Shown: piece after piece, positions 6,301-20,506 of the stretch
How the letters are laid out: each line of letters starts with the position of its first letter
Position numbering within the stretch: position 1 is the first letter of the stretch
Virus record (IMG/VR): IMGVR_UViG_3300037847_004283
Span: 1 to 22,098 of that record
Reading direction: 5' to 3' (one strand)
Source: a virus
Length of the DNA: 22,098 bases
Notes under the pieces: generated by a model
Database searches by the model: none
What the model was told of the DNA's origin: nothing
What the model saw: the letters and a program-made list of their open reading frames with translations, nothing else
Program-made: the position numbers and the translations under genes

Positions 6301-6334
6301 TATAAGGGCGGTCTAGTATCGCCCTTATATTTTT
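6301..6334 (+). terminator. Rho-independent terminator after the capsid gene
   Basis: A perfect 10-bp stem (TATAAGGGCG at 6301-6310 with CGCCCTTATA at 6320-6329), a 9-nt loop and a run of five T (6330-6334) lie 13 nt after the capsid stop. The GC-rich core stands out against the AT-rich surroundings. It would end or attenuate transcripts that carry terminase, portal, scaffold and capsid genes. The next gene starts 24 nt downstream with no clear promoter, so some read-through is likely. Confidence 0.9.
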
Positions 6335-6358
6335 ATTAATTTTATTATATATTATATT

Positions 6359-7228: not shown

Positions 7229-7258
7229 AATAGCCACCTATTTTGGGTGGCTATTTTT
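7229..7258 (+). terminator. Rho-independent terminator closing the capsid-side block
   Basis: A perfect 10-bp stem (AATAGCCACC at 7229-7238 with GGTGGCTATT at 7246-7255), a 7-nt loop and a T-run that starts in the 3' arm (7254-7258) lie 18 nt after the stop of the preceding gene. It is followed 26 nt later by the 22-nt repeated motif, so this intergenic region reads as a terminator followed by a promoter. Confidence 0.9.
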
Positions 7259-7284
7259 ATTTAGGGCTAACCTTTCACTTTATT

Positions 7285-7306
7285 ATGTAACTATATTATA
7301 GTAAAA
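7285..7306 (+). promoter_or_regulatory. Repeated 22-nt motif, copy 1; candidate phage promoter or operator
   Basis: The sequence at 7285-7306 (begins ATGTAACTAT, ends ATAGTAAAA) matches 21 of 22 bases with a second copy at 18936-18957. Each is in an intergenic gap just before a gene. It contains an inverted repeat ACTAT-ATT-ATAGT (7290-7302) and a -10-like TATTAT (7294-7299). It lies between a terminator and the start of the 53-aa gene, 11 nt before its ATG. No -35 element is obvious. A promoter is the simplest reading; a repressor or activator site is possible. Confidence 0.6.
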
Positions 7307-7317
7307 TATATAGTATT

Positions 7318-7479
7318 ATGAAATCGAAAGGACTAGGTGACGACGTCGCTAATTTTACTAAAAAAACGGGTTTAAAAAAACTAACACAAATAGCAATGGA
7401 AGCTATGGGTTACAAAGGTTGTAATTGCGATGAAAGGCAAGCCTGGTTAAACAATCAATTTCCATATTATAAAAAATAA
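7318..7479 (+). CDS. Small conserved phage protein with Cys-x-Cys motif (53 aa)
   Basis: The frame encodes 53 residues, starting MKSKGLGDDVANFTKKTG and ending LNNQFPYYKK. It is positively charged, has an N-terminal GLGDDV...TKKTGLKK segment, a helix (LTQIAMEAMG), a Cys35-Asn-Cys37 pair followed by DERQ, and a C-terminal aromatic-basic tail. I recall similar 50-60 aa proteins (GLGD..., a CxC or CGC pair, LN..FPY) as frequent in phages and prophages of Bacteroidota; their function is not known to me. It is the first gene after the terminator-motif pair and ends 3 nt before the next start, so it leads the connector/tail transcription unit. Two cysteines alone are too few for a zinc finger, but a dimer could bind metal. 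The start has ATT at -3 to -1. Compact intergenic fit and family resemblance argue that it is real despite its size. Confidence 0.82.
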   Translation: MKSKGLGDDVANFTKKTGLKKLTQIAMEAMGYKGCNCDERQAWLNNQFPYYKK

Positions 7480-7482
7480 ATT

Positions 7483-8223
7483 ATGGCGGTAAGTATAAAT
7501 GAAGTATATCAAAAAGTTTTAGTTATAGCAAATAAAGAACAAAGAGGCTATATAACACCTCAAGAGTTTAATTTGTTTGCTGATAAAGCTCAATTAGAAA
7601 TATATGATGGTTATTTCCATGATTTAAAAATGGCTAACTATAAAAATAAAAACCAAAAGGGAGTAGGGTTTGATGAGGTTGAAATGGTTTACCAAAAATT
7701 AGCACCTTTTAAAAACACAGTAGTAATTAGTCAAACAGCAGGTGACAACACATTTGAGCTTCCAGATAGACACTACTTTATTAATAACATAGTTAATGTT
7801 GATTTAGGTGTAGAGCTTAAAGAGTTAAGTATGAAAAAAATTTTACATACTGAAGCAAATCCTTTAACAAGAGCTACTACAAATAGACCTGTTTATGCTC
7901 AGATCGGAATAAACCTTACTACAGATGGTGTGAATGCTATTAGTCAAGTTCGAATATATCCAACCCCTACTGTTGACACATCTCTTCACGTTGATTTTTT
8001 TAAAAAACCTGCAACCCCTAAGTGGGCATATGTTGTTGTTCAAGGTAAAGCATTATATAACGCGTCGGCTACAGATCTTCAAGATTTTGAGTTGCACGTG
8101 TCTGAAGAAGAAAATTTAGTTACTAGAATATTAGGTTTATCCGGCGTAGCTATGAGAAGTCCTGATATTGCACAGGCGGGCGTAATGGACAAGCAGAGTA
8201 TTAAACAATCACAAAATGATTAA
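7483..8223 (+). CDS. Connector or ring-like virion protein
   Basis: This 246-aa protein has an N-terminal helical part with the signature NKEQRGYITPQEFN (residues 17-30) and then FADKAQLEIYDGYF. The rest is mainly beta: VVISQTAGDNTFELP, YFINNIVNVDL, and ISQVRIYPTPT. From memory, proteins starting this way are found beside tail genes in Bacteroidota phages, including crAss-like ones, where such small proteins form rings between portal and tail. Its position after the portal/capsid block and directly before another connector-like gene fits this. No enzymatic motif is seen. It starts 3 nt after the 53-aa gene and ends 2 nt before the next start, so it is part of one tightly coupled operon. The specific role (adaptor, ring or stopper) is inferred. 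Confidence 0.82.
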   Translation: MAVSINEVYQKVLVIANKEQRGYITPQEFNLFADKAQLEIYDGYFHDLKMANYKNKNQKGVGFDEVEMVYQKLAPFKNTVVISQTAGDNTFELPDRHYFINNIVNVDLGVELKELSMKKILHTEANPLTRATTNRPVYAQIGINLTTDGVNAISQVRIYPTPTVDTSLHVDFFKKPATPKWAYVVVQGKALYNASATDLQDFELHVSEEENLVTRILGLSGVAMRSPDIAQAGVMDKQSIKQSQND

Positions 8224-8225
8224 CT

Positions 8226-9119
8226 ATGGGATTACTAGACGATCAAACTCAATTTCAATACTACAACAACGCTGCTAATTATGGTAGCTATCAGTTCGTT
8301 AGTTTAGATAATATAATAAACGCTTTCATGGTTATATATGTTGGTGAAAACAAAATAATATCTAAGGTAGATAGGACAGATGTTCAGTTTCATGCCATGC
8401 GTGCTATACAGGAATTATCATACGATGTGTTTAGATCTTTTAAAACTCAAGAGATAGAAGTTCCAAATACTTTAGTTATGGCACTACCTCAAGACTATGT
8501 TAATTACATAAAGTTATCTAGGGTAGATAGTGATGGTATTGAAAGAGTTTTATATAAAACAGGTAAGACATCTAATCCATTTGCTATATCTCAAGATGAT
8601 GATGGCAACTATCAGTTTAGCGATGAAGAAGCTCCATTTGGAACTCAAGACACTCTTATAGAGCAGACACCTAGTAATACATCTGATAGCTATCAAAATC
8701 AACAAGCTGTTGATACTTTTGCGGATGATTCAACGGATATAGAAATAGATAGTAGAGGTAGAAGATATGGTATAGATCCTCAGTACGCTCAAGCAAATGG
8801 TAGCTTTTATATAGATTTGCTAAGAGGTTATATAAATTTTAGCTCAGCGTTAGCAGGTAAAACAATTATATTACACTATGTGAGTGATGGACTTGGTACT
8901 GACTCTGAAATGGTTGTACATAAGTTTTGTGAAGAAGCTATTTATAAGTGGATAACATATGGCATATTATCTTCAAGATCAAATATACCAGAATATATAG
9001 TACAAAGATATAAAAAAGAAAAATTTGCTGAAACAAGAAAAGCAAAAATAAGATTATCAAATATTAAAATAGAAGAATTTACTCAAATACTTAAAGGTAT
9101 GGGTAAGCAAATAAAATAA
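8226..9119 (+). CDS. Head-tail adaptor / tail tubular-like protein
   Basis: This 297-aa protein carries a helical segment DRTDVQFHAMRAIQELSYDV (about residues 49-68) followed by a beta part with EIEVPNTLVMALPQDYVNYI (about 77-96) and KLSRVDSDGIERVLYKT. A disordered acidic stretch (about 120-175) comes next, then GSFYIDLLRGYINFS and a C-terminal helix-rich part (EEAIYKWITYGILSS). The early helices followed by a short beta domain resemble tail tubular protein A of T7-like phages in general layout, and I recall similar sequences in marine and crAss-like phages, where they belong to the neck. The next gene encodes the giant nozzle-like protein, the partner expected for such an adaptor. It begins 2 nt after the previous stop. 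The fold match is an inference and would need structure prediction. Confidence 0.78.
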   Translation: MGLLDDQTQFQYYNNAANYGSYQFVSLDNIINAFMVIYVGENKIISKVDRTDVQFHAMRAIQELSYDVFRSFKTQEIEVPNTLVMALPQDYVNYIKLSRVDSDGIERVLYKTGKTSNPFAISQDDDGNYQFSDEEAPFGTQDTLIEQTPSNTSDSYQNQQAVDTFADDSTDIEIDSRGRRYGIDPQYAQANGSFYIDLLRGYINFSSALAGKTIILHYVSDGLGTDSEMVVHKFCEEAIYKWITYGILSSRSNIPEYIVQRYKKEKFAETRKAKIRLSNIKIEEFTQILKGMGKQIK

Positions 9120-9122
9120 ATT

Positions 9123-12100
9123 ATGCCGGAATTAAAACATAGTTTTCAAGCCGGAAGAATGAACAAGGATTCAGATGAGAGACTTGTTCCTAACGGTGAA
9201 TACAGAGAAGCAATGAACATACAGGTTAGAACTACCGATGGTGGTACTGATGATCTCGGTGATGCCGGTACCGTGCAGAATATAAAAGGTAATTCTCTAA
9301 TAGAACCTACAGCTCACTTACAATCTGGCTTTACATCAAGCATTATTGGAGGTCCAAATACAAACTTTGTAATGGGTAGTGTTGCTGATGAAAAAACAAA
9401 CTCTATCTACTTTCTTATAGCTGGAGCAAATCTTAGACAGGTAATAAATCTTCCAACCCAAATATCTAGTAAAAAATTATTTATAGACACAATACTTGAA
9501 GTAAAAGAAACTTCTTCTGGAGCTCAAAGTAATCCAGTTGTTGTAGATAAATATGCTATAGTAGATACTTGTTTAAATGTTTTTGGAACAACACCACCTG
9601 ATGGAACTAACCCATACCAACAAGTTACTCTACCTGAAGATAACTCTGTTATAGATGATTTAAGTCCAGGATTTAGATTAACAGTTTGGAGTAATCAAGG
9701 TTTTCCTATAATGAGGGATGTTGAGATACAGCACGTTGATAAAGGTAACAATGTTTTAACTTTTTACAATGAACAAGTAGTTAATCTTCAATTAGGATAT
9801 TCTTTAGTTTTTCAAAGAGATGGTGCTTTAAATTTTAGCACAATAGGTAAAAAACCAACTTTAATTACAGGTATTAATGTGATAGATAATTTATTATTTT
9901 GGACAGACAATGTATCTGAGCCAAAAAAAATAAATATTGATAGATGTAAAAAAGGTACAAGCGACTTTACTTCACATACACAGTTGTTTATTGAAAACCC
10001 TTTAACAAGTAGCACTGAATTAGCCGTAGATGAAGGAACAGGACAGGGCATGGAATTTCAACTATCACCTCTTTTAAATAATGATATAAGAGAGGAGCAC
10101 ATGGTTGTTATGAGACAAGCGCCACTTACTGCCCCAAATATAGAAATGAGTGTTGATGAGAGATCAGGACAAACAAACATATCAGCTTTTCAATATAACT
10201 TTGTGACAACAAATGAAGAAGGATCTCAAACTTTCTTAAATATAGGTGATGAAATAACTGTAGTAAGTTCAGACTTTAATAATATAGACTATATGGTTAA
10301 TGATATATTAAAGTTTACTACAACACTAGAAAACAATACAGAGGTTGTTTTATCAATGACAATAAACTCTATATCTACAGACGAATCGACTGGTAACACT
10401 GCTATAACATTTATGGTATTAACACTATTTGGCAATACCCCAAACATTGATGAAACTTATTGGGAGGTTGAATTAGAAAAATCTAGTCCTTTGTTTGAAT
10501 TAAAACTAGGTAGATTTGGGTATAGATATAAATACACAGATGGAGAGTATTCTTCGTTTTCACCTTGGTCTGAATTAGCTTTCTTACCTGGACCTTATGA
10601 ATCTAATCATAAAAAAGGTTATAATCTAGGTATGGTTAACACAGCTAGAAATATAATAATAAAAGATTTTATTCCACATCCTAGAACTAGACCTCTTGAT
10701 ATAAAATGTGTTGATATACTGTATAAAACAACAGATAATCAAAATGTTTATGTTGTTAAAACAATAGAAAGAGAAAGAGATCCTGAGTGGGAGATGTTTG
10801 TTCCAGGTGGTCCTCTTGGTGGGGAAGGTTTGGATTCTATGGTTTTTGGTAGATACTCAATAACATCAGAGATGATATATAAAACTCTACCATCTAATCA
10901 AACATTAAGAGCCTGGGATAATGTACCTAGAAGAGCTTTAGCTCAAGAGATAGCAGCCAATAGAGTTATATACGCAAACTATACACAAGGTTATGATATA
11001 GTTAATCCAGTGGGATTAATACAAAACTTAAAAAGTAATCAAGAAGCAAATCCTAATGAACCTAAAAAATCTATTAAATCAATTAGGGAATATAGGTTTG
11101 GTATGGTATTTGGAGATAGATACGGTAGAGAAACACCAGTTATTTCTCCTGGTTTAATTGCTGGTGGTGATTATTCTAATTATTCTGTAAATTCTGGTGA
11201 CGTTAGGATTCCTAAAAAGTTATCTAAAAACAAAAACTGGTTTGAAGTTCAACAAGACTGGGATCAAGTTATTGGCAATGGTGTTCCAGAGCAGTGGATG
11301 GAGTATGTTAAATACTATGTAAAAGAAACGTCTAACGAGTATTATAACTTAGTAATGGATAGATGGTATGAAGCCGAAGATGGAAACATATGGTTATCAT
11401 TTTCTTCTGCTGATAGAAATAAAGTGGATGAGGACACTTATTTAATAATGAAGAACGAGCACGGCTCTAATACAGCTGTTGAAGAAAAAGCTAGATACAA
11501 AGTTATAGCAATACAAAATGAAGCGCCAGACTTTATTAAACTAGACCCTAGAGACATGGGTAAAATACCTCTAGATCCAGGTCAAATTGATGGAGTTTTT
11601 GTAGATGATCTAGACGCAAATCCTGAAGCTGTAGTTGCTACCGGATTAGTTGAGAATACTCAATTAAAAATAGAGGCTTCTGTTTGGCAAAATTTTTTAG
11701 ATGATTATAATCCAAGGGGAAATTTAAAAATTAGAGTAGTTGGCTCATGCACAGCTATAGATCAAGTTTTATTTAGTAACTATAGAACAATAACTAGACA
11801 TTCTCCAGGTGTTGATGAGGATGATGATTGTACACTTGTTTGGAATAAGAATTTTGGAGCATCAGCTGACATGTACAGTAGGTTTGTTGCTTTAGGAGCT
11901 GGATCTACTGTTACTGGCTTAAAGTATGAGTTAGAAATAAGAGAAATGGTTGTGGATAACAAACCAGAGTACGAAGGTAGATTTTTTGTAAAAATAGAAA
12001 AAGATATATTAGTTCAAGAAAAAATCCAACATATGCTTCCAGAGCAGGGTGATCTTCTACCAGTGGCTTCGTATCCTCTTGGTTATATAGATTCTCAACC

Positions 12101-15100
12101 ATTCAATCCTGCACTTAATGGTGAATATGCTAATTATCCCTGGGCGAGCGTGTCATCTGCTGCAGTTGAAACGGGAAGTACTAATAATAGTAACGGCGGT
12201 AATGTAGCCACAGATCCAGATGGAATTGATAGCAGATTTCAGGTTGCAGCGTTTGCTCTAGGTGTTACTAAGGAAATTGGCTCAGACTCTAGTATAGACA
12301 ATATAGAGACTACATCTTCAACAGGTCCAGTTTCTTTTATGTCATCTTTTCAACAATATTTTAGAGTAAATTACGGTAGTCTTACTAGAGACTATTGGAA
12401 GTGGCACAAGGAATATGTTGGTGATCCTATTGATCCATCGGGAGCAAATACTCCTAAAACCAGAATGTTTATTGATTCAGCTAGAGCTAGAAGAATGATA
12501 TTAAATAATCCAAATGCCACAACAAATAACGATGGAGATGGATTGGGACCAAAATCAATAGAGTTTTATAAACCAACTGGTTTAGATGAAGGTAGACTAT
12601 CTGGCGATAACTTTTCGCCAACAGTAAATGGGGAGTTAGGCAGAATGTTTGTTTCTATAAGTGATACGTGGCAAGACGGTGGAAACGGAACAAGTGGTTT
12701 TATTGGTAGTGAACTATCTTTTAAAAATGAATTTTCAAAAGCTGGAACTATTTTTAGTTTTGATGGTGATCCAGAAGGCACTTTATATATAACTGTTACA
12801 AATGAGCAGACAATAGATGAAGTAGTTAGAGTTGAAGTCGATAATAGTCTTATACTTGGGGCAATAAATTACGAGCCAGTTCATGAATTTAATGTGTTTA
12901 ACGATGATGTTGAAAGTATAGCACTAATAGATTTTAATACGAACCCCAACTTTATTATGTTTGCAGATGAAGATACTGACAACAATGATGATGGTGACTG
13001 GGACTACGGTGGTAGTGGAGTTAATTTAAGTGGTTCTATTGATAGCGTAGATGATTTTTTAAACTTGCAAAATGATGTTCCAGGAATCTTAGTTAGCACA
13101 TATGCTGGAGGGATGATTACCACTGGAACTGTTAGTATAACTGGAAGTATTAGCGATGGTATAAACTTTAACCAATCATCAGATGGAAGCAACGATATTT
13201 TAGGTGAAGCATTATTTGGTACACAGGTTTTTGGAATGCAAAATCTTGATCAATTTAGAATATCTAGATCTGGTTTTAGATTTGAATTTAGAAGATTAGA
13301 TACTAACAATACGATCGTACCAAACGGTGGTATTATAATTGATGATTTTGATCCAAGAGGATTATTGCTTCACGATGGTAGAAATAGAATAAATATAACT
13401 GTCCACGCTAGACAGTTTTTAGGTGGTGGTCAGTACATACCAACTGATCAAGGAGCTGTTTGGGAAACAGAACCAAAAGAAGACGTTGGATTAGATATAT
13501 ATTACGAAGCTTCTAATGCGATACCAATGATTTTAAATAGTGAAAACACACCATTATTTGCTCCATATAATTCAAAGGTAACAGTACAGAGACCAATAGA
13601 TAATGGGGGTTTTAACGATATAACTCTATCTGGTTTTAACCATCATGTTTGGACGATAGGATATACTCAGTCTACATCTATAATAGGTGTAAAATCTACA
13701 ACCGTAGGTGACACAGCAACTCTTCATACCTCTGAAATAGAGGTAGGAGATTTTTTAATTTTCGAACATAATGATGGTACAAAAACTAGATCAGAAGTAA
13801 CTGCTCACATGGCACCTCTAGTTGAGCACGGAGATGATGCTAACTTAAATGAAACTGTTTTTAGAGAATTAACACCAGAGACCGATGGAGTTGATTTTGG
13901 TTTTTCATGGAATGGTAACACTAGTAATGGTAGTGCCGTGTTTGTAGTAACTGGAAGTTCTGCAGCTGCACTTATATCTGCTGGAATATCATTCAATGGC
14001 AGCTTAATTACAGATCCCGTAGATGACACTTTAGATAATCAAGGAATACCAGAAAACACATATATTACATCTTACACTATTAGCGGTAGTAATGTTTTTA
14101 TTACATTATCTCAAGATGATTTTGCTACCGCTGGTGAGCAAGACGCAGATTACAAGGTTAATGCTTTTCCGTCTAGAACTGGTTACTACGAAATTGAATC
14201 TAAAGTTTATAAATATCCAGTAGAATTAGCATGGCACAATTGTTATTCTTTTGGCAATGGCGTAGAGTCAGATAGAATAAGAGATGACTTTAATGCTCCA
14301 ACTATAGATAATGGTATTATAGTTTCAACAACTTTTACCGGTTATGGCGAAGAGAATAAAGGTAGTGGTTTAATATATTCAGGCTTATACAACTCAACAT
14401 CAGGTGTTAATGATTTAAACGAGTTTAATATGGCTGAAAAAATAACTAAAGATTTAAATCCTAGTTACGGTTCAATACAAGCTTTGAAAACAAGAGATAC
14501 AAACGTTGTTGCTTTAGCTGAAGACAAAGTTCTACAAATAACAACTAATAGAGACGCTTTGTTTAACGCTGATGGTAATGCACAATTATTAGCTTCAAAC
14601 AAAGTTTTAGGTACAGCTGTTCCGTATAGTGGAGATTACGGTATATCTAAAAATCCAGAGTCTTTAGCTGTTGACCAGTTTAGAATGTATTTTACAGACA
14701 CTCAAAGAGGAGCTGTTTTAAGATTATCAAGAGATGGCTTAACACCTATATCTAGTGCTGGTATGAAAACTTACTTTAGAAATAATTTAAAAAAAGCAGA
14801 GTCTTTAGTTGGAAGTTTTGACACTGTTAACGGTGAATATAATTTAACATTAAAGTATATGTCTGGATTAGGAGATGATACTACTGTTTCTTACAATGAA
14901 TCATCTAAAGGTTGGGTTAGCTTTAAGTCATTTGTTTTAGAATCAGGTAAGTCTGTTGGTGGAAAATACTTTACAGCTAAGAAAAACGAAACATATGAAC
15001 ACCATGTTGACGTAGTTGAAAATGGAGTAATAACTAATAGAAATACTTTTTATGGTGTTTTTGAAGAGTCTAGTGTTAGTGTTTTATTTAATGACATGCC

Positions 15101-15491
15101 AAGTAGTATCAAGGATTTTAAAACAATAAACTATGAAGGATCTCAAGCTAGAGTACAACAGTCTTACGATATAGCTGTATCAGCAAATATTACAGACGCG
15201 GCAGGAAATAGTGTTTCTACGTCAGATAACGAATACTATAATTTAACACCTAAAAAAGGTTGGTACGTAGAGTCATTTACCACAGACATGCAAAATGGTT
15301 CTATACCTGAGTTTATTGAAAAAGAAAATAAATGGTTTAATAAAATACAAGGAGCTGATGACGTAGAGTTTGTAGTTGATGCGTCTGAGTTTAGTACTCA
15401 AGGTATTGGTATTTGTTCTGGCGTTGTTTACACAGGCGATCAATTTGAGCTTAGTGTTGGTGCAGATTTAGTAAATGATGATAACGATTAA
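9123..15491 (+). CDS. Giant tail protein (2122 aa), nozzle or hub-like
   Basis: At 2122 residues this is the largest protein of the window. Its N-terminus GRMNKDSDERLVPNGEYREA (residues 11-30) is a signature I know from large tail proteins of marine and Bacteroidota phages; the layout resembles the opening of nozzle or tail tubular B-type proteins, which start by binding the adaptor ring. Recognisable conserved blocks are FGYRYKYTDGEYSSFSPWSE (about 463-482), LPSNQTLRAWDNVPRRALAQ (about 589-608), FGMVFGDRYGRETPV (about 659-673), and a C-terminal block with TFYGVFEESSVSVLFND, NYEGSQARV and KGWYVESF (about 1974-2050). Between these lie long Asn/Asp/Ser/Gly-rich beta segments without clear repeats. 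It has no coiled coil or transmembrane regions as expected for a tape measure. It likely forms the tail body and may carry receptor-contacting domains. It starts 3 nt after the previous gene. Confidence 0.85.
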   Translation: MPELKHSFQAGRMNKDSDERLVPNGEYREAMNIQVRTTDGGTDDLGDAGTVQNIKGNSLIEPTAHLQSGFTSSIIGGPNTNFVMGSVADEKTNSIYFLIAGANLRQVINLPTQISSKKLFIDTILEVKETSSGAQSNPVVVDKYAIVDTCLNVFGTTPPDGTNPYQQVTLPEDNSVIDDLSPGFRLTVWSNQGFPIMRDVEIQHVDKGNNVLTFYNEQVVNLQLGYSLVFQRDGALNFSTIGKKPTLITGINVIDNLLFWTDNVSEPKKINIDRCKKGTSDFTSHTQLFIENPLTSSTELAVDEGTGQGMEFQLSPLLNNDIREEHMVVMRQAPLTAPNIEMSVDERSGQTNISAFQYNFVTTNEEGSQTFLNIGDEITVVSSDFNNIDYMVNDILKFTTTLENNTEVVLSMTINSISTDESTGNTAITFMVLTLFGNTPNIDETYWEVELEKSSPLFELKLGRFGYRYKYTDGEYSSFSPWSELAFLPGPYESNHKKGYNLGMVNTARNIIIKDFIPHPRTRPLDIKCVDILYKTTDNQNVYVVKTIERERDPEWEMFVPGGPLGGEGLDSMVFGRYSITSEMIYKTLPSNQTLRAWDNVPRRALAQEIAANRVIYANYTQGYDIVNPVGLIQNLKSNQEANPNEPKKSIKSIREYRFGMVFGDRYGRETPVISPGLIAGGDYSNYSVNSGDVRIPKKLSKNKNWFEVQQDWDQVIGNGVPEQWMEYVKYYVKETSNEYYNLVMDRWYEAEDGNIWLSFSSADRNKVDEDTYLIMKNEHGSNTAVEEKARYKVIAIQNEAPDFIKLDPRDMGKIPLDPGQIDGVFVDDLDANPEAVVATGLVENTQLKIEASVWQNFLDDYNPRGNLKIRVVGSCTAIDQVLFSNYRTITRHSPGVDEDDDCTLVWNKNFGASADMYSRFVALGAGSTVTGLKYELEIREMVVDNKPEYEGRFFVKIEKDILVQEKIQHMLPEQGDLLPVASYPLGYIDSQPFNPALNGEYANYPWASVSSAAVETGSTNNSNGGNVATDPDGIDSRFQVAAFALGVTKEIGSDSSIDNIETTSSTGPVSFMSSFQQYFRVNYGSLTRDYWKWHKEYVGDPIDPSGANTPKTRMFIDSARARRMILNNPNATTNNDGDGLGPKSIEFYKPTGLDEGRLSGDNFSPTVNGELGRMFVSISDTWQDGGNGTSGFIGSELSFKNEFSKAGTIFSFDGDPEGTLYITVTNEQTIDEVVRVEVDNSLILGAINYEPVHEFNVFNDDVESIALIDFNTNPNFIMFADEDTDNNDDGDWDYGGSGVNLSGSIDSVDDFLNLQNDVPGILVSTYAGGMITTGTVSITGSISDGINFNQSSDGSNDILGEALFGTQVFGMQNLDQFRISRSGFRFEFRRLDTNNTIVPNGGIIIDDFDPRGLLLHDGRNRINITVHARQFLGGGQYIPTDQGAVWETEPKEDVGLDIYYEASNAIPMILNSENTPLFAPYNSKVTVQRPIDNGGFNDITLSGFNHHVWTIGYTQSTSIIGVKSTTVGDTATLHTSEIEVGDFLIFEHNDGTKTRSEVTAHMAPLVEHGDDANLNETVFRELTPETDGVDFGFSWNGNTSNGSAVFVVTGSSAAALISAGISFNGSLITDPVDDTLDNQGIPENTYITSYTISGSNVFITLSQDDFATAGEQDADYKVNAFPSRTGYYEIESKVYKYPVELAWHNCYSFGNGVESDRIRDDFNAPTIDNGIIVSTTFTGYGEENKGSGLIYSGLYNSTSGVNDLNEFNMAEKITKDLNPSYGSIQALKTRDTNVVALAEDKVLQITTNRDALFNADGNAQLLASNKVLGTAVPYSGDYGISKNPESLAVDQFRMYFTDTQRGAVLRLSRDGLTPISSAGMKTYFRNNLKKAESLVGSFDTVNGEYNLTLKYMSGLGDDTTVSYNESSKGWVSFKSFVLESGKSVGGKYFTAKKNETYEHHVDVVENGVITNRNTFYGVFEESSVSVLFNDMPSSIKDFKTINYEGSQARVQQSYDIAVSANITDAAGNSVSTSDNEYYNLTPKKGWYVESFTTDMQNGSIPEFIEKENKWFNKIQGADDVEFVVDASEFSTQGIGICSGVVYTGDQFELSVGADLVNDDND

Positions 15492-15494
15492 AAT

Positions 15495-16919
15495 ATGGCA
15501 GCAGTAAATTACATAATAGAAAACACACCGGTAACAACGGCTCAATATGCTACTACTAGTAGCGGTATAACTAATCCACTTCAACTTATTATTAAGCCAG
15601 CAAACTATGAAACACACACTGTTTCTGCTACAAGCTTTAGAATAAGTGGGTTAACAAACTCTACTTATTACAACGGTTTACCAAATGCTTATTTTTCTTT
15701 TTTAGGTGATGATGTTTTACCAGATGGAGTTTTAGTTGTTCAGTTTAGAGACAGTGGTGATGCTGGAGAACCTGGAAACACCGTTATAGTCGATGTTTAC
15801 GTTGCAGATGATTTCGTGATGCCTGGCAATGATCACCAATTTTTTCTAGACATAGATGGTGACGCAGATGAAATACCCGTAAACACTATAGAAATAGTTA
15901 ATCCAGAAGCTGGTACACCAACAGTATTTGCTTTAAATATGGTTAATTCACTTAGAGGCTTTAATCCAGCTAATCCAGCCTTTCCTTTGCCAGCAGGAAC
16001 ACCAAGTATAGTACCTGGTGCACCTATTTTACCTGGTGATTTTGGCGAGGGTATTGAAATAATTAGTAATCACACTGGCTATCAGATGTTTAATTCGGAT
16101 GCTGAGGTTCTCGGTGGACCAGCAAGTTCACAAATAGTAATACCACAACCTTACGGCGTTTTATTTAACAATTGTTCTACTGGTTTAAACCCTGATACAG
16201 GTGGTTATTCTGGCACACCAAGTAATCCTGTAGTGCCTCAACCATGTTTTGGAAGGCAAAGATTTAATGCCACAGTTGGAGAAGGTATATATCTACCTTG
16301 GCCACACTGTAAGTTTACTATTCGACCAAAAGTCGGCTCAAACTTAGTTGTATCTAGACATTTTTATAGTATTGAAGCTGAGGGTAGTGCGTCTTATACT
16401 GGACAGCAAGTAAGTAATATGGGTACTGTTGCGGGTTCAGGTGTTACTAATGACTTTGATGGTGATGTGGCAAATACGCTTATAGATAATTCTTCTCAAA
16501 ACACAGCTTTAGGACTAGGTGGTGAAGACTACATTGTTAATAACACGAGGTTTGGACAGACTGTTTATTACAATCCAACGGTTTATTTAGGTAGTGACTT
16601 ATCTCAACCACTAACTGGTATTATTAGTAAAATTATATTGTTAGACACTAAAGCCTGGTTCACTCCAGGTGGTAGTATTGCTAGCGGCCAAGGATTAGCA
16701 GATATACTACCCGAAGATACTGATTCACTAGGTGTTTCTAGTAATTTTATAGACAACGATATTAGAATAATTATAAAAGGTTTACATGGTTATATTATAC
16801 CAGAGATATTAACGGATTTATATTTCATTGTAAGTGGACAACCAATACAATTAAATATAGATGAAGAACCTGACGTGCAATTTAATTTTGACATTCAAGT
16901 TCCATTTACAATGGCTTAA
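15495..16919 (+). CDS. Tail-associated protein of unknown function (474 aa)
   Basis: This 474-aa protein is Asn/Gly/Pro/Thr-rich and almost entirely predicted beta, with no signal peptide or membrane segment. Visible segments are an N-terminal LIIKPANYETHTVSA, a domain VLVVQFRDSGDAG followed by NTVIVDVYVADDFVMPGND (about 90-115), a Pro/Gly-rich linker with PLPAGTPSIVPGAPILPGD (about 165-180), and a region with three cysteines (NNCSTG, QPCFG, PHCKF). The C-terminus (LTDLYFIVSGQPIQLNI, then VQFNFDIQVP) looks like a beta strand edge. It sits 3 nt after the giant tail gene and is followed by two similar beta-rich genes, so a tail accessory, fibre-base or receptor-binding protein is likely. No known family is recognised with confidence. 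The ATG has AAT before it and follows the pattern of the other starts. Confidence 0.83.
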   Translation: MAAVNYIIENTPVTTAQYATTSSGITNPLQLIIKPANYETHTVSATSFRISGLTNSTYYNGLPNAYFSFLGDDVLPDGVLVVQFRDSGDAGEPGNTVIVDVYVADDFVMPGNDHQFFLDIDGDADEIPVNTIEIVNPEAGTPTVFALNMVNSLRGFNPANPAFPLPAGTPSIVPGAPILPGDFGEGIEIISNHTGYQMFNSDAEVLGGPASSQIVIPQPYGVLFNNCSTGLNPDTGGYSGTPSNPVVPQPCFGRQRFNATVGEGIYLPWPHCKFTIRPKVGSNLVVSRHFYSIEAEGSASYTGQQVSNMGTVAGSGVTNDFDGDVANTLIDNSSQNTALGLGGEDYIVNNTRFGQTVYYNPTVYLGSDLSQPLTGIISKIILLDTKAWFTPGGSIASGQGLADILPEDTDSLGVSSNFIDNDIRIIIKGLHGYIIPEILTDLYFIVSGQPIQLNIDEEPDVQFNFDIQVPFTMA

Positions 16920-16929
16920 AACACAAACT

Positions 16930-18537
16930 ATGACTAAAGTATTATTAAAAAATGGAGACAGTGTAACTATTACTGGTGCTAACGGCACTAGTGTTTCATC
17001 TATTGTAGAAAACGGTGGTTTTCCTAGCACGGAAAATAATATATTTACCATACGTGGTAGAGCTGCAAATAACACACCAAAAATTATAGCAAATATAACT
17101 ATTGAGGCTGGTGGTAATAGAAAGTTCAACACAACTCCACAGTTAATTTTAGAGTCAGTTTCATCTCAACTTGGTATAAACAATAATGACATGTCAATGA
17201 AACTTACAGGCTCTACAACAAAAGGCACTGGGGTTAATAAAGTAACTACTTCTTATAGTTATAACTTAATATATAATGGTTCTAAACGAATTGAAAGATC
17301 TGACGAACTATTATATTCTTTACACGCTAAATCTATACCGGTAGTTAATATCACAAAAGGAATAAAAGATATAAAGATAACCAATAAAGATATAAGAGCC
17401 ACTGGTTCAACTAGCACTATAAAAGTAATTGGAACTCCTAACACTGATTTTTCTATAGCCGTAACAAGATTAGATGACAATGTAAGATTAACTAATACAC
17501 TAGGAACTGCTAATAGAGTTTTAAAATCTTTAAAACAAATAGGTAACGTAACTGAAACCTCTATTATAAGTAGAGCTATCAATAAAGATGACACTTCAGT
17601 AGAGATAGATACTTTTAATGAACTAACATCTACTATTTATGTGCTTAAAGCAAAAACTAATAATAGTGGTGTTTTTAGTTTTTCTCAAAAATTCCCTAAA
17701 ATAAAAGCCCATGCCTCAACTGCTATTAATGGTAGCATGGCCGCTAGTGGAACTACAAAAATAATATTTGATAGTTTAGCTGGAGTAGGTATTGGTGATG
17801 AAGTTTTATTTTCTGATGGCTCAACAATGCAACAAGGCGTTCCAACTGTGGTTACTGTTATAAATCCAGATGGTGATAACGCTAATGAATGTATTTTATC
17901 TAATAGTGTTACAGCTGCAGATGGCGTAGAATGTAAGTTTATTAGACCTTGCAGATACTCTATAAATCTACTTGATGGAGATCAGGTCGATCCTCTATAT
18001 GAAACGTATTCTATACCAGGATTTGTAGATGGTAGACAAGGTTGGAGTAAGTTTCAGTCGAAAATATTAACTCAAAGCGTAAGGCCAGTAATAATACTAA
18101 GAGCTACAACTGAAAATGATAACTATACAATTAATACAGTTGAACCTCCAGCTTCAGGAACTCATATATTTGATAATGTTTTTCCTGGAAGAGTAAATAC
18201 TATAGCTACGTCTATAAATAATAGATTCATGACAACATCTACGACAACAATTACGTATGCTATAGCTAGAACAGGTGCAGCAGCTTCAGGTGGCAAAACA
18301 TTTTCCACTGTTTCTGGTAAAGAAAATGGTCCAGTATTTGATCCTAGAGATGAAGACAATTCTGACTTCACAAATATAGATCCTAGGAGAAATGGAGGAT
18401 CATTAATATCAATAAGAAATATTACTTTTTCTAATAGTGGCACAGCTGTAAATATTTCATTTAAATTTAGAGTTGAAAGATGGGGATTGGAAACTAAGGT
18501 TATAGAATTAGATTTAGACAATATAATAAGTATATAA
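16930..18537 (+). CDS. Beta-rich tail-associated protein of unknown function (535 aa)
   Basis: This 535-aa protein begins MTKVLLKNGDSVTITGANGT. The frame is open upstream to an ATG at 16861, but that would overlap the previous gene by 59 nt; the ATG at 16930 has ACT at -3 to -1, lies 10 nt after the previous stop and matches the packing of the operon, so it is preferred. The sequence is Thr/Asn/Ser/Ile-rich and reads as consecutive small beta domains; one, STIKVIGTPNTDFSIAVTRL (about residues 163-182), looks like an immunoglobulin-like strand pair seen in marine phage tail proteins. Near the C-terminus are NPDGDNANE and FDPRDEDNSDFTNIDPRRNG, acidic loops that may bind calcium (a guess). No catalytic motif is visible. 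The neighbours suggest a tail appendage or adhesin. The function is not known. Confidence 0.83.
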   Translation: MTKVLLKNGDSVTITGANGTSVSSIVENGGFPSTENNIFTIRGRAANNTPKIIANITIEAGGNRKFNTTPQLILESVSSQLGINNNDMSMKLTGSTTKGTGVNKVTTSYSYNLIYNGSKRIERSDELLYSLHAKSIPVVNITKGIKDIKITNKDIRATGSTSTIKVIGTPNTDFSIAVTRLDDNVRLTNTLGTANRVLKSLKQIGNVTETSIISRAINKDDTSVEIDTFNELTSTIYVLKAKTNNSGVFSFSQKFPKIKAHASTAINGSMAASGTTKIIFDSLAGVGIGDEVLFSDGSTMQQGVPTVVTVINPDGDNANECILSNSVTAADGVECKFIRPCRYSINLLDGDQVDPLYETYSIPGFVDGRQGWSKFQSKILTQSVRPVIILRATTENDNYTINTVEPPASGTHIFDNVFPGRVNTIATSINNRFMTTSTTTITYAIARTGAAASGGKTFSTVSGKENGPVFDPRDEDNSDFTNIDPRRNGGSLISIRNITFSNSGTAVNISFKFRVERWGLETKVIELDLDNIISI

Positions 18538-18538
18538 T

Positions 18539-18925
18539 ATGGCAACATTACAATTAAACTTTGGAACACTAGCTGATGGTTTTGATTTCAACAGTTCACT
18601 TCAAGTAGGTGACACTATTTACTATGCTAGCCCCACCACTAGTGGAGGCTTCAGCGTAGAAGATGATGATGATCAAATTACTTTATTAGGAGTAATAACT
18701 AATATAAACCCCGCAACATCTACAACAATTGCAAATTTAATTTGCGATATTAATAATAATATACCACCTCCACCAAACAACAGTTATATATTATTTAGTA
18801 AAGACCGATCTGTAAATGTGTCAAATATAAAAGGCTATTATAGTGAAGTTAAATTTAATAATGACTCCAAGAACAAGGCTGAACTATTTGCCACGTCGTG
18901 TGAGATCAATGAGACTAGTAAATAA
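18539..18925 (+). CDS. Small virion-associated protein, beta-rich (128 aa)
   Basis: This 128-aa protein starts one base after the stop of the previous gene. It has SSLQVGDTIYYAS (about residues 19-31), an Asp-run EDDDDQITLLG, a linker with four prolines (NIPPPPNNS), and a terminal block SYILFSKDRSVNVSNIKGYY (about 82-101) followed by SEVKFNNDSKNKAELFA. From memory this last block, with ILFSKD and GYY.EVKF.N, is common in small structural proteins of marine phages, including cyanophages, where the role is not established. It ends the connector/tail block: the second copy of the 22-nt motif begins 11 nt after its stop. The TAA stop overlaps an ATG (TAATG at 18923-18927) that opens only a 13-codon frame and is not taken as a gene. 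Confidence 0.8.
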   Translation: MATLQLNFGTLADGFDFNSSLQVGDTIYYASPTTSGGFSVEDDDDQITLLGVITNINPATSTTIANLICDINNNIPPPPNNSYILFSKDRSVNVSNIKGYYSEVKFNNDSKNKAELFATSCEINETSK

Positions 18926-18935
18926 TGAGTAAAAA

Positions 18936-18957
18936 ATGTAACTATATAATAGTAAAA
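18936..18957 (+). promoter_or_regulatory. Repeated 22-nt motif, copy 2; candidate phage promoter or operator
   Basis: This is the second copy of the motif at 7285-7306, with one mismatch. It holds the inverted repeat ACTAT-ATA-ATAGT (18941-18953) and a perfect -10 consensus TATAAT (18945-18950). If this is a -10 box, transcription would start near 18957, about 20 nt before the next ATG at 18978. There is no clear -35 element at the matching distance, which argues for a phage polymerase, an activator or an extended element. No terminator hairpin is visible between the previous gene and this copy. Confidence 0.6.
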
Positions 18958-18977: not shown

Positions 18978-19616
18978 ATGGCGTTTAAAATGAAGGGGAT
19001 GAGTTTCGGTAAAGGGACTTCTCCAAATAAAAAAATGAATACAACCTCAAACTTTTATGGCAAAAGAGGTATACAAACAGGAGAATCAAAACAGCAATAT
19101 AGAGACAGGCAAAGAGTTGAAAGAATATATTCTGGAATGAAAAATAAAACATCATATGAAGATGTTGCAAAAAAACTACAAAAAGGTGATGCTTTTAAAG
19201 CTGGTAAAACTAAAGACGCAACTAACACTATAATTACAGGTGGACCAAAAATTAAAAAAACAACAACAACGCCTAAGGTTGCGCCAAAAAAACCAACACC
19301 TAAAGTTACAACAACAAAAACAACAACACCTAAAACTAAATCTCCATCTGGATTTGGTGCGGCTTTTAATGCTGCTAGAAAAAGTGGAAAAAGAACATTT
19401 AAGTTTAACGACAAGTTATACACTACTAGACAAAAAGGAGAATCAAAACAAGCGTTTGAAGCTAAGTTCAAAAAACCTAGTAGTAGTGTAGCTAAAACAA
19501 AAGTAACACCCATTAGAAGAGATAAAACAAAAGTAACAGCTCCTAAAATTAATATTAAAAAGAAAAACGGAGGCAAAAAAGTTGGTGTTAAATTTCCTAT
19601 TGGTAGAAAAGTTTAA
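18978..19616 (+). CDS. Basic Thr/Lys/Pro-rich phage protein with AFNAARKSGKRTF motif
   Basis: This 212-aa protein is strongly basic. It starts MAFKMKGMSFGKGTSPNKK, an opening I know from short phage proteins. Residues about 95-121 are a Thr/Lys/Pro tract (TTTTPK, PKVTTTKTTTPK). Then comes GFGAAFNAARKSGKRTFKF (about 125-143) with NDKLYTTRQ, a motif that recurs in marine phage proteins and is of unknown role. The segment GESKQ occurs twice, before and after the tract (residues about 35-39 and 155-159), encoded by the same 15-nt sequence at 19079-19093 and 19436-19450. The C-terminus is Lys/Gly-rich (KKKNGGKKVGVKFPIGRKV). High charge and low complexity suggest a DNA-binding internal virion or ejected protein; this is inference. 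It is the first gene after motif copy 2. The start is one of the few with G at -3. Confidence 0.78.
   Translation: MAFKMKGMSFGKGTSPNKKMNTTSNFYGKRGIQTGESKQQYRDRQRVERIYSGMKNKTSYEDVAKKLQKGDAFKAGKTKDATNTIITGGPKIKKTTTTPKVAPKKPTPKVTTTKTTTPKTKSPSGFGAAFNAARKSGKRTFKFNDKLYTTRQKGESKQAFEAKFKKPSSSVAKTKVTPIRRDKTKVTAPKINIKKKNGGKKVGVKFPIGRKV
19260..19341 (+). repeat. ACA/CCT-rich low-complexity tract inside the basic protein gene
   Basis: This stretch is built from imperfect ACAACAAC(A/G)CCTAA(A/G) units with intervening A-runs and encodes the Thr/Lys/Pro linker of the basic protein. It is purine-poor in C+G context and strand-asymmetric (almost no G or T runs on the + strand), so the opposite strand shows a long shadow frame. 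It is an in-frame low-complexity linker, not a mobile repeat. Confidence 0.7.
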
Positions 19617-19633
19617 TTTAAAATTATAATAAT

Positions 19634-20506
19634 ATGGCATTATTCGGAGGATTATTAGGTGTGGCTGGTAGCGCTATAGGTTTTTTTGGCGCCAAGAAAG
19701 CTGAGAAAGAAGCTGCTGCTAGAGAAGCTGCCGCTAAGAGAGAAATGGATAGATACAAGTCTCAATATGCTTCTATAGATACTAGTAATCCGTATTTAAA
19801 CATGACTAATACTATGGCTGGTCTTGAGAATACAATGGAAGACGCCACCATTAATCAAAAGCAAGCAGAGATGGAAGCTCAACAGTTTCAACAAAGTCAA
19901 GCTAATATATTAGACTCAATGAGAGGTGCTGCTGGTGGTAGTGGTATAGCCGCTACAGCTCAAGCGCTAGCTCAGCAAGGTCAACAAGCTGCTCAAAGGT
20001 CTGCGGCAAGTATAGGCGCTCAAGAGTCAGCTAACCAAGCAGCTGCTCTTCAACAAGCTGGAAGACTACAAGAGATGGAAGCTAGAGAGGCAGGAAGATT
20101 ACAGGGTTTAGAAAGACAAGGTGAGATTTTATCAAGACAACAACAGCAACAACAAATAGGTACTTTACTAGGAATGTCACAATCAGACGTTGCTGCTGAG
20201 AGACAACTAAAGGCACAAGCTACAGAAGCTAAAACAAGTGCTTTAGGTAGTGGACTTCAAGCTCTTGGTGGATTGTTTTCAGATAGAAGATTAAAAAAGA
20301 ATATTAAACTAATAGGTAGTTCTCCTAGTGGTTTAAAAATATATGCTTTCGAATATATTGATAAAGTGTTTGGAGAAGGTGTTTTTCAAGGCGTTATGGC
20401 TGATGAGATGTCTAGTGATGTCACAGTTAAACATCCAAATGGATATAATATGGTTGACTATTCTAAGATAGACGTAGAATTTAAAAACATAAACCATGGC
20501 AGATAG
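19634..20506 (+). CDS. Ejection-like virion protein with C-terminal S74 peptidase-like domain
   Basis: This 290-aa protein has three parts. Residues 2-19 (ALFGGLLGVAGSAIGFFG) are a hydrophobic Gly/Ala helix, typical of proteins ejected into the cell envelope with the DNA. Residues about 20-210 are helical, Ala/Gln/Glu-rich (repeated AEMEAQQFQQ, AQALAQQGQQAA, a Gln6 run), as in podovirus internal proteins. Residues 216-290 match the start of the intramolecular chaperone/peptidase S74 family: FSDRRLKKNIKLIG, then GLKIYAFEYIDKVFG and GVFQGVMADEM, ending NGYNMVDYSKIDVEFK. Ser216 (nt 20279-20281) and Lys221 fit the Ser...Lys pair of the self-cleaving domain. The domain is usually at the end of tail fibres and is longer (over 100 residues in endosialidase); here it is short, and cleavage before Ser216 would release 75 residues. 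The gene ends in TAG, the only non-TAA stop, and overlaps the next start by 11 nt. Confidence 0.83.
   Translation: MALFGGLLGVAGSAIGFFGAKKAEKEAAAREAAAKREMDRYKSQYASIDTSNPYLNMTNTMAGLENTMEDATINQKQAEMEAQQFQQSQANILDSMRGAAGGSGIAATAQALAQQGQQAAQRSAASIGAQESANQAAALQQAGRLQEMEAREAGRLQGLERQGEILSRQQQQQQIGTLLGMSQSDVAAERQLKAQATEAKTSALGSGLQALGGLFSDRRLKKNIKLIGSSPSGLKIYAFEYIDKVFGEGVFQGVMADEMSSDVTVKHPNGYNMVDYSKIDVEFKNINHGR

Follow-up and report, generated by a model that had tools for sequence, protein, structure and literature searches.

A repeated 22-nt motif in an uncultured phage genome probably supplies the -10 half of each of two late promoters read by a phage sigma factor

Introduction

The switch to late transcription by a phage-encoded sigma factor is already known. 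Both gp36 of Escherichia phage phiEco32 and gp47 of Salmonella phage 7-11 activate late genes from a small number of well-conserved promoters (PMC4331800, PMC8948821). The late promoters of 7-11 follow the pattern GTAAtg-(16)-aCTA, and those recognised by gp36 the pattern tAATGTAtA (PMC8948821).

Here we analyse a virus record from IMG/VR, referred to as the window, which is 22,098 bp in length and is a fragment ending short of the sigma locus. It contains two copies of a 22-nt motif, which the original prediction took for a phage late promoter or the site of its activator. We assign a probability of about 0.78 to the reading that each copy supplies the -10 half of a late promoter, and that the enzyme acting there is probably the host core RNA polymerase carrying a phage factor of the sigma-70 family. 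What would be new is this particular sigma and its promoter sequence (i.e. no description of either was found in the literature searched, nor of any promoters of this phage group).

Results

Gene layout and the motif pair

The genes of the window run from a partial large terminase through the portal, a 394-aa ORF, the capsid protein and a 283-aa protein to copy 1 of the motif (7285–7306, + strand). Beyond this lie tail-side genes, including one for a 2122-aa protein, followed by copy 2 (18936–18957, + strand) and an ejection-like block. The capsid protein shares 40–45% identity with capsids of Flavobacterium phages, Maribacter phages and MW202828. As claimed, the copies are identical at 21 of 22 bases, the single difference being base 13, which is T in the first copy and A in the second, and they are unique within the window: no third match with up to three mismatches was found, and shuffled sequences gave a mean of 0.07. 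The predicted spacings are also borne out, with copy 1 located 26–30 nt past a strong terminator and 11 nt ahead of a 53-aa ORF, and copy 2 located 20 nt ahead of the ORF at 18978, bearing in mind that ORFs were called mechanically and that distances to start codons may be off in places.

The terminator that closes the capsid block (7229–7262, + strand) is intrinsic, with a 12-bp stem (7229–7255), a 3-nt loop and a T-rich tail; it lies directly 5' of promoter 1 and is conserved in group A, one of two groups of relatives considered below. The 53-aa ORF (7318–7479, + strand; phrog_27568, E 1.8e-7) is the first gene of the tail block, a position taken over by the next gene in several relatives, and it is followed by a 246-aa virion structural gene (7483–8223, + strand; phrog_14543). 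On the ejection side, no family match was found for the first gene (18978–19616, + strand, 212 aa), and the second (19634–20506) matches the DNA ejection/virion proteins phrog_6121 and phrog_4287. Elsewhere in the window, positions 6301–6358 contain the terminator of the capsid gene and then a conserved AT-rich leader (TTAATTTTATTATATATTATATTATG) which precedes the 283-aa gene; this leader is found in groups A and B and is without a sigma-type promoter.

Recurrence in other phages

The exact 22-mer, allowing A or T at base 13, is present in 98 stretches of IMG/VR viral contigs. With up to three mismatches it occurs in 23 of 29 long relatives, usually as exactly two same-strand copies separated by 9–15 kb, and a reversed control pattern produced one match in total across these 29. 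A search of relatives for further copies had been set beforehand as the observation on which the prediction would stand or fall, and the copies are there; this recurrence, together with the shuffles of the window, upholds the claim that a chance match is improbable. The distinct copies listed are found in two contexts, either following a terminator where the tail block begins, or behind a gene ending in a conserved AGTAAATAA, and the most frequent variation affects the three central bases.

Bipartite architecture

The 22-mer corresponds to the downstream (-10) half of a bipartite promoter form, [GC]TAA[AC][TC]-N13-TGTRAYTAT. In 20 related genomes or fragments, TGTRAYTAT was observed 53 times at no more than 50 nt upstream of ORF starts, against 3.3 expected. 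The looser pattern TGTRAYWAT was observed 68 times against 3.8 expected, the best of 400 column permutations reaching 45 and the reversed pattern 3. A -35 element is located exactly 19 nt 5' of the TGT in all 73 of the distinct 22-mer copies with enough upstream DNA, at a spacing which is constant over four different site classes (sites 0 to 3; see below). In the alignment, sites 0, 2 and 3 share GTAAAT in this place, and site 1 has CTAACC. A single-element promoter was considered and dropped after the -35 had been seen at this fixed spacing.

All elements of the two promoters in the window lie on the + strand. In promoter 1 (site 1), the -35 CTAACC occupies 7267–7272, the CTAA being found 19 nt 5' of TGT in 10/10 group A site 1 sequences; the putative extended -10 (TGT + AACTAT; 7286–7294) contains the core TGTRAYTAT common to the site classes, and transcription is predicted to start at A7300/G7301, 6–7 nt past the -10. 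In promoter 2 (site 2), the -35 GTAAAT occupies 18918–18923, again 19 nt 5' of TGT in 10/10 group A site 2 sequences, the putative extended -10 (TGT + AACTAT) occupies 18937–18945, and the start predicted from its position is A18951/G18952. The last Lys codon and the stop codon of the 18539–18925 gene share bases with the -35 of promoter 2 (window 18910–18925), and this overlap may explain the frozen AGT AAA TAA codons seen in relatives.

Judged by the spacing, the -10 hexamer is most likely AACTAT preceded by TGT, and not TATAAT. With the -35 ending at -29, AACTAT falls at -12 to -7, 16 nt away, and the TGT falls in the place of an extended -10. The TATAAT to which the original prediction pointed is indeed present in copy 2, but it is unlikely to be the -10, since this position is occupied by TATTAT in copy 1 and by TAATAT in relatives, and lies 21 nt from the -35. 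The start codon coincides with the predicted transcription start in L127 and L131, so the register fits AACTAT rather than TATAAT. The late promoter stands as the best-supported reading of the motif, although the 22-mer as first delimited is out of register and comprises only the -10 half, with the -35 lying 19 nt 5' of its TGT. A scan of site 1 with the sigma-70 consensus gave a match count equal to that in shuffles.

The motif might instead act in RNA, as a hairpin in the 5' leader that serves processing or translation, and in fact the copies are near start codons and a weak hairpin is possible. We consider this extremely improbable, because promoter 1 directly follows a terminator and transcription must start there. 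The second, upstream element at fixed spacing and the site 3 copies that have no hairpin both fit DNA recognition, as do the host promoters which occupy orthologous gaps in relatives (see below).

Four sites in two groups of relatives

In ten group A genomes the bipartite pattern gave 42 matches against 5.2 expected, 36 of which are at four expected places: site 0 heads the late cluster, site 1 the tail block and site 2 the ejection block, and site 3 follows directly on the sigma gene. Both originally predicted sites are real, but they are two of four in the long relatives, which also have those at the late-cluster head and behind the sigma gene. Group B contains sites 2 and 3 in a related form, more often with TTAAAT. 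The sigma is present in this group, yet it is mostly without a promoter at site 1, where a hairpin lacking a T-run is found instead. This conserved long hairpin, ACTGTAG..CTCTTCGGGG..CTACA, often with a TTCG-type loop, lies between the 283-aa and 246-aa genes (L149, L102, L126). A weaker fifth site, ATAAACRTGTAATAATA, is located behind the giant ejection gene in G002, G003, G004, G007, G030 and G034; it has the -10 core and no -35 at 19 nt.

Most group A copies at sites 1 and 2 contain a 5+3+5 dyad, ACTAT-NNN-ATAGT, which could suggest a dimeric operator bound by a phage regulator. Such an operator is very unlikely, since sites 0 and 3 do not have the dyad and G034, G032 and group B have it in broken form, with TGTRAYTAT and the spacing of the -35 retained, and since the orientation of the motif is fixed relative to the genes.

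A phage sigma factor encoded next to site 3

G003, a 71-kb relative with repeated ends, encodes a 251-aa protein (G003 63415–64170) containing Pfam Sigma70_r2 and Sigma70_r4, which a sequence search links to bacterial sigma factors of solved structure. Across the clade, 18 contigs, the complete members included, encode a sigma-70-family protein of 247–260 aa with regions 2 and 4, at 78–100% identity to the G003 sigma in genomes with the full 22-mer and 50–63% in the other group. As a forward test, the site 3 pattern by itself was used to retrieve contigs, and the sigma gene was found directly upstream in 20 of 21 (11 new contigs), ending 31–45 nt before the TGT. The site 0 or site 3 patterns brought in another 19 contigs, and site 1 and/or site 2 is present in 12 of these. 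No sigma match was found in most of the shorter contigs, which are fragments and may not all reach the sigma locus. A close homologue was not found in any isolated phage of the collection searched. An AlphaFold model of the sigma (pLDDT 74.6, pTM 0.45) matches sigma factors in the PDB with TM-scores of about 0.3 and adds little to the identification. These observations make a phage-encoded sigma a more likely reader of the motif than the activator that had been proposed, and suggest that the window's own genome also carries the gene. The sigma and the motif occur together in genomes of a single clade only, which means that these genomes do not count as independent evidence. The two versions of the -35 (CTAACC and GTAAAT) and the missing site 1 promoter in group B, whose members encode the sigma, also weigh against this reader.

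Other polymerases were considered as readers. A T7-type RNA polymerase gene (PF00940) gave no match in 29 relatives, with control genomes equally silent, and is absent from the family list of G003; this candidate was set aside. A virion RNA polymerase was also rejected: when ORFs >200 aa of G001 and G003 were scanned for a DxDxD-type motif, the sole match was in the tail protein of G001.

Distant relatives and the early promoter class

Neither the sigma nor the late-promoter motif was found in Elemovirus, Maribacter phage Panino or MW202828, which are distant relatives infecting Bacteroidetes. Ordinary host promoters (TATCTTTG; GTATCTTTG) are instead found in the orthologous gaps, in both gaps of Panino and MW202828 and in the first of Elemovirus. 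The GTATCTTTG type is the housekeeping consensus of Bacteroidetes, TTTG / TAnnTTTG (PMC6847099). The gaps are therefore promoter positions in which the type of promoter differs between clades. TATCTTTG is upstream of genes in 15/34 cases in the isolates, against 1/36 in group A and 0/38 in group B, and so is not enriched in the clade of the window; it is absent from the gaps of G001–G005, and TAnnTTTG at -7 is absent from both window sites. Two small MAG contigs, L210 and L211, are binned as Maricaulis sp. IN14, and each has a gene for a protein related to the capsid protein (65% and 77%). They are without the motif and the binning is doubtful, and Maricaulis was not retained as a host.

A second promoter-like class, ACAAA-TAAATACGA-N9-GATAATATAAAT (AAATACGA-N9-[GT]ATAAT), was counted 64 times on the early strand but not once on the late strand. 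It was seen in G001, G002, G003 and other relatives (e.g. L186, L193, L194), and it matches neither TTGACA/TATAAT nor TAnnTTTG.

These comparisons bear on whether the late promoters might be read by a host sigma of unusual consensus, perhaps with a phage activator, leaving the phage sigma to other sites or a minor role. A TGn followed by a -10-like hexamer is a general extended -10 form, and recognition by the phage sigma is itself deduced. We nevertheless regard this as unlikely: the separate early class suggests that two specificities are in use, and neither sigma nor motif was found in the distant isolates. A phage sigma with cognate late promoters is favoured by the sigma-70-family gene of the relatives and by a repeated motif which precedes virion gene blocks and is distinct from the early promoter class.

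Discussion

What can be read directly from the DNA is how the sites are built, conserved and placed, and that relatives have a sigma gene; beyond this we propose an order of events. Early transcription would produce the sigma, which is encoded on the early strand. The sigma holoenzyme would then fire four promoters, those of the late-cluster head, the tail block, the ejection block and the gene that immediately follows sigma; in the window, promoter 1 would open the tail block and promoter 2 the ejection block. We tentatively suggest that the clade acquired the sigma and rewired its late promoters in place, from the host type to a sigma-specific bipartite type, beside its own early class. If so, one recognising enzyme replaced another at promoter positions that did not change, a natural case of promoter exchange at fixed genome positions, of a kind foreseen in the 7-11 study (PMC8948821). 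More broadly, the analysis proposes a transcription programme from DNA alone for uncultured marine phages (i.e. the late genes, their starts and the probable reader protein), and offers a sigma-promoter pair for test-tube work.

Among known systems, the Bacteroidetes housekeeping promoter occupies the same gaps in related phages, with a sequence unrelated to the promoter of the window's clade. With phiEco32 the clade shares a sigma that would direct late transcription from few conserved sites. The phiEco32 promoter is a single element and gp36 is without region 4 (PMC8948821), whereas the promoter here is bipartite; the clade sigma neither aligns with gp36 nor shows detectable similarity to it, and we do not place it in a gp36-like family. 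The closer parallel is 7-11, which also combines a sigma containing region 4 with few, well-conserved bipartite promoters before late genes. The gp47 protein is shorter (185 aa, compared with about 251 aa here), the virion genes and host are unrelated, and similarity between the sigmas is weak (hhalign probability 20%, pairwise E 0.0011), so membership in the gp47 family is not claimed. The promoters are nonetheless strikingly similar in geometry and letters (GTAAtg-(16)-aCTA in 7-11 and GTAAAT-16-AACTAT here), with the window's clade distinguished by a conserved TGT in the spacer.
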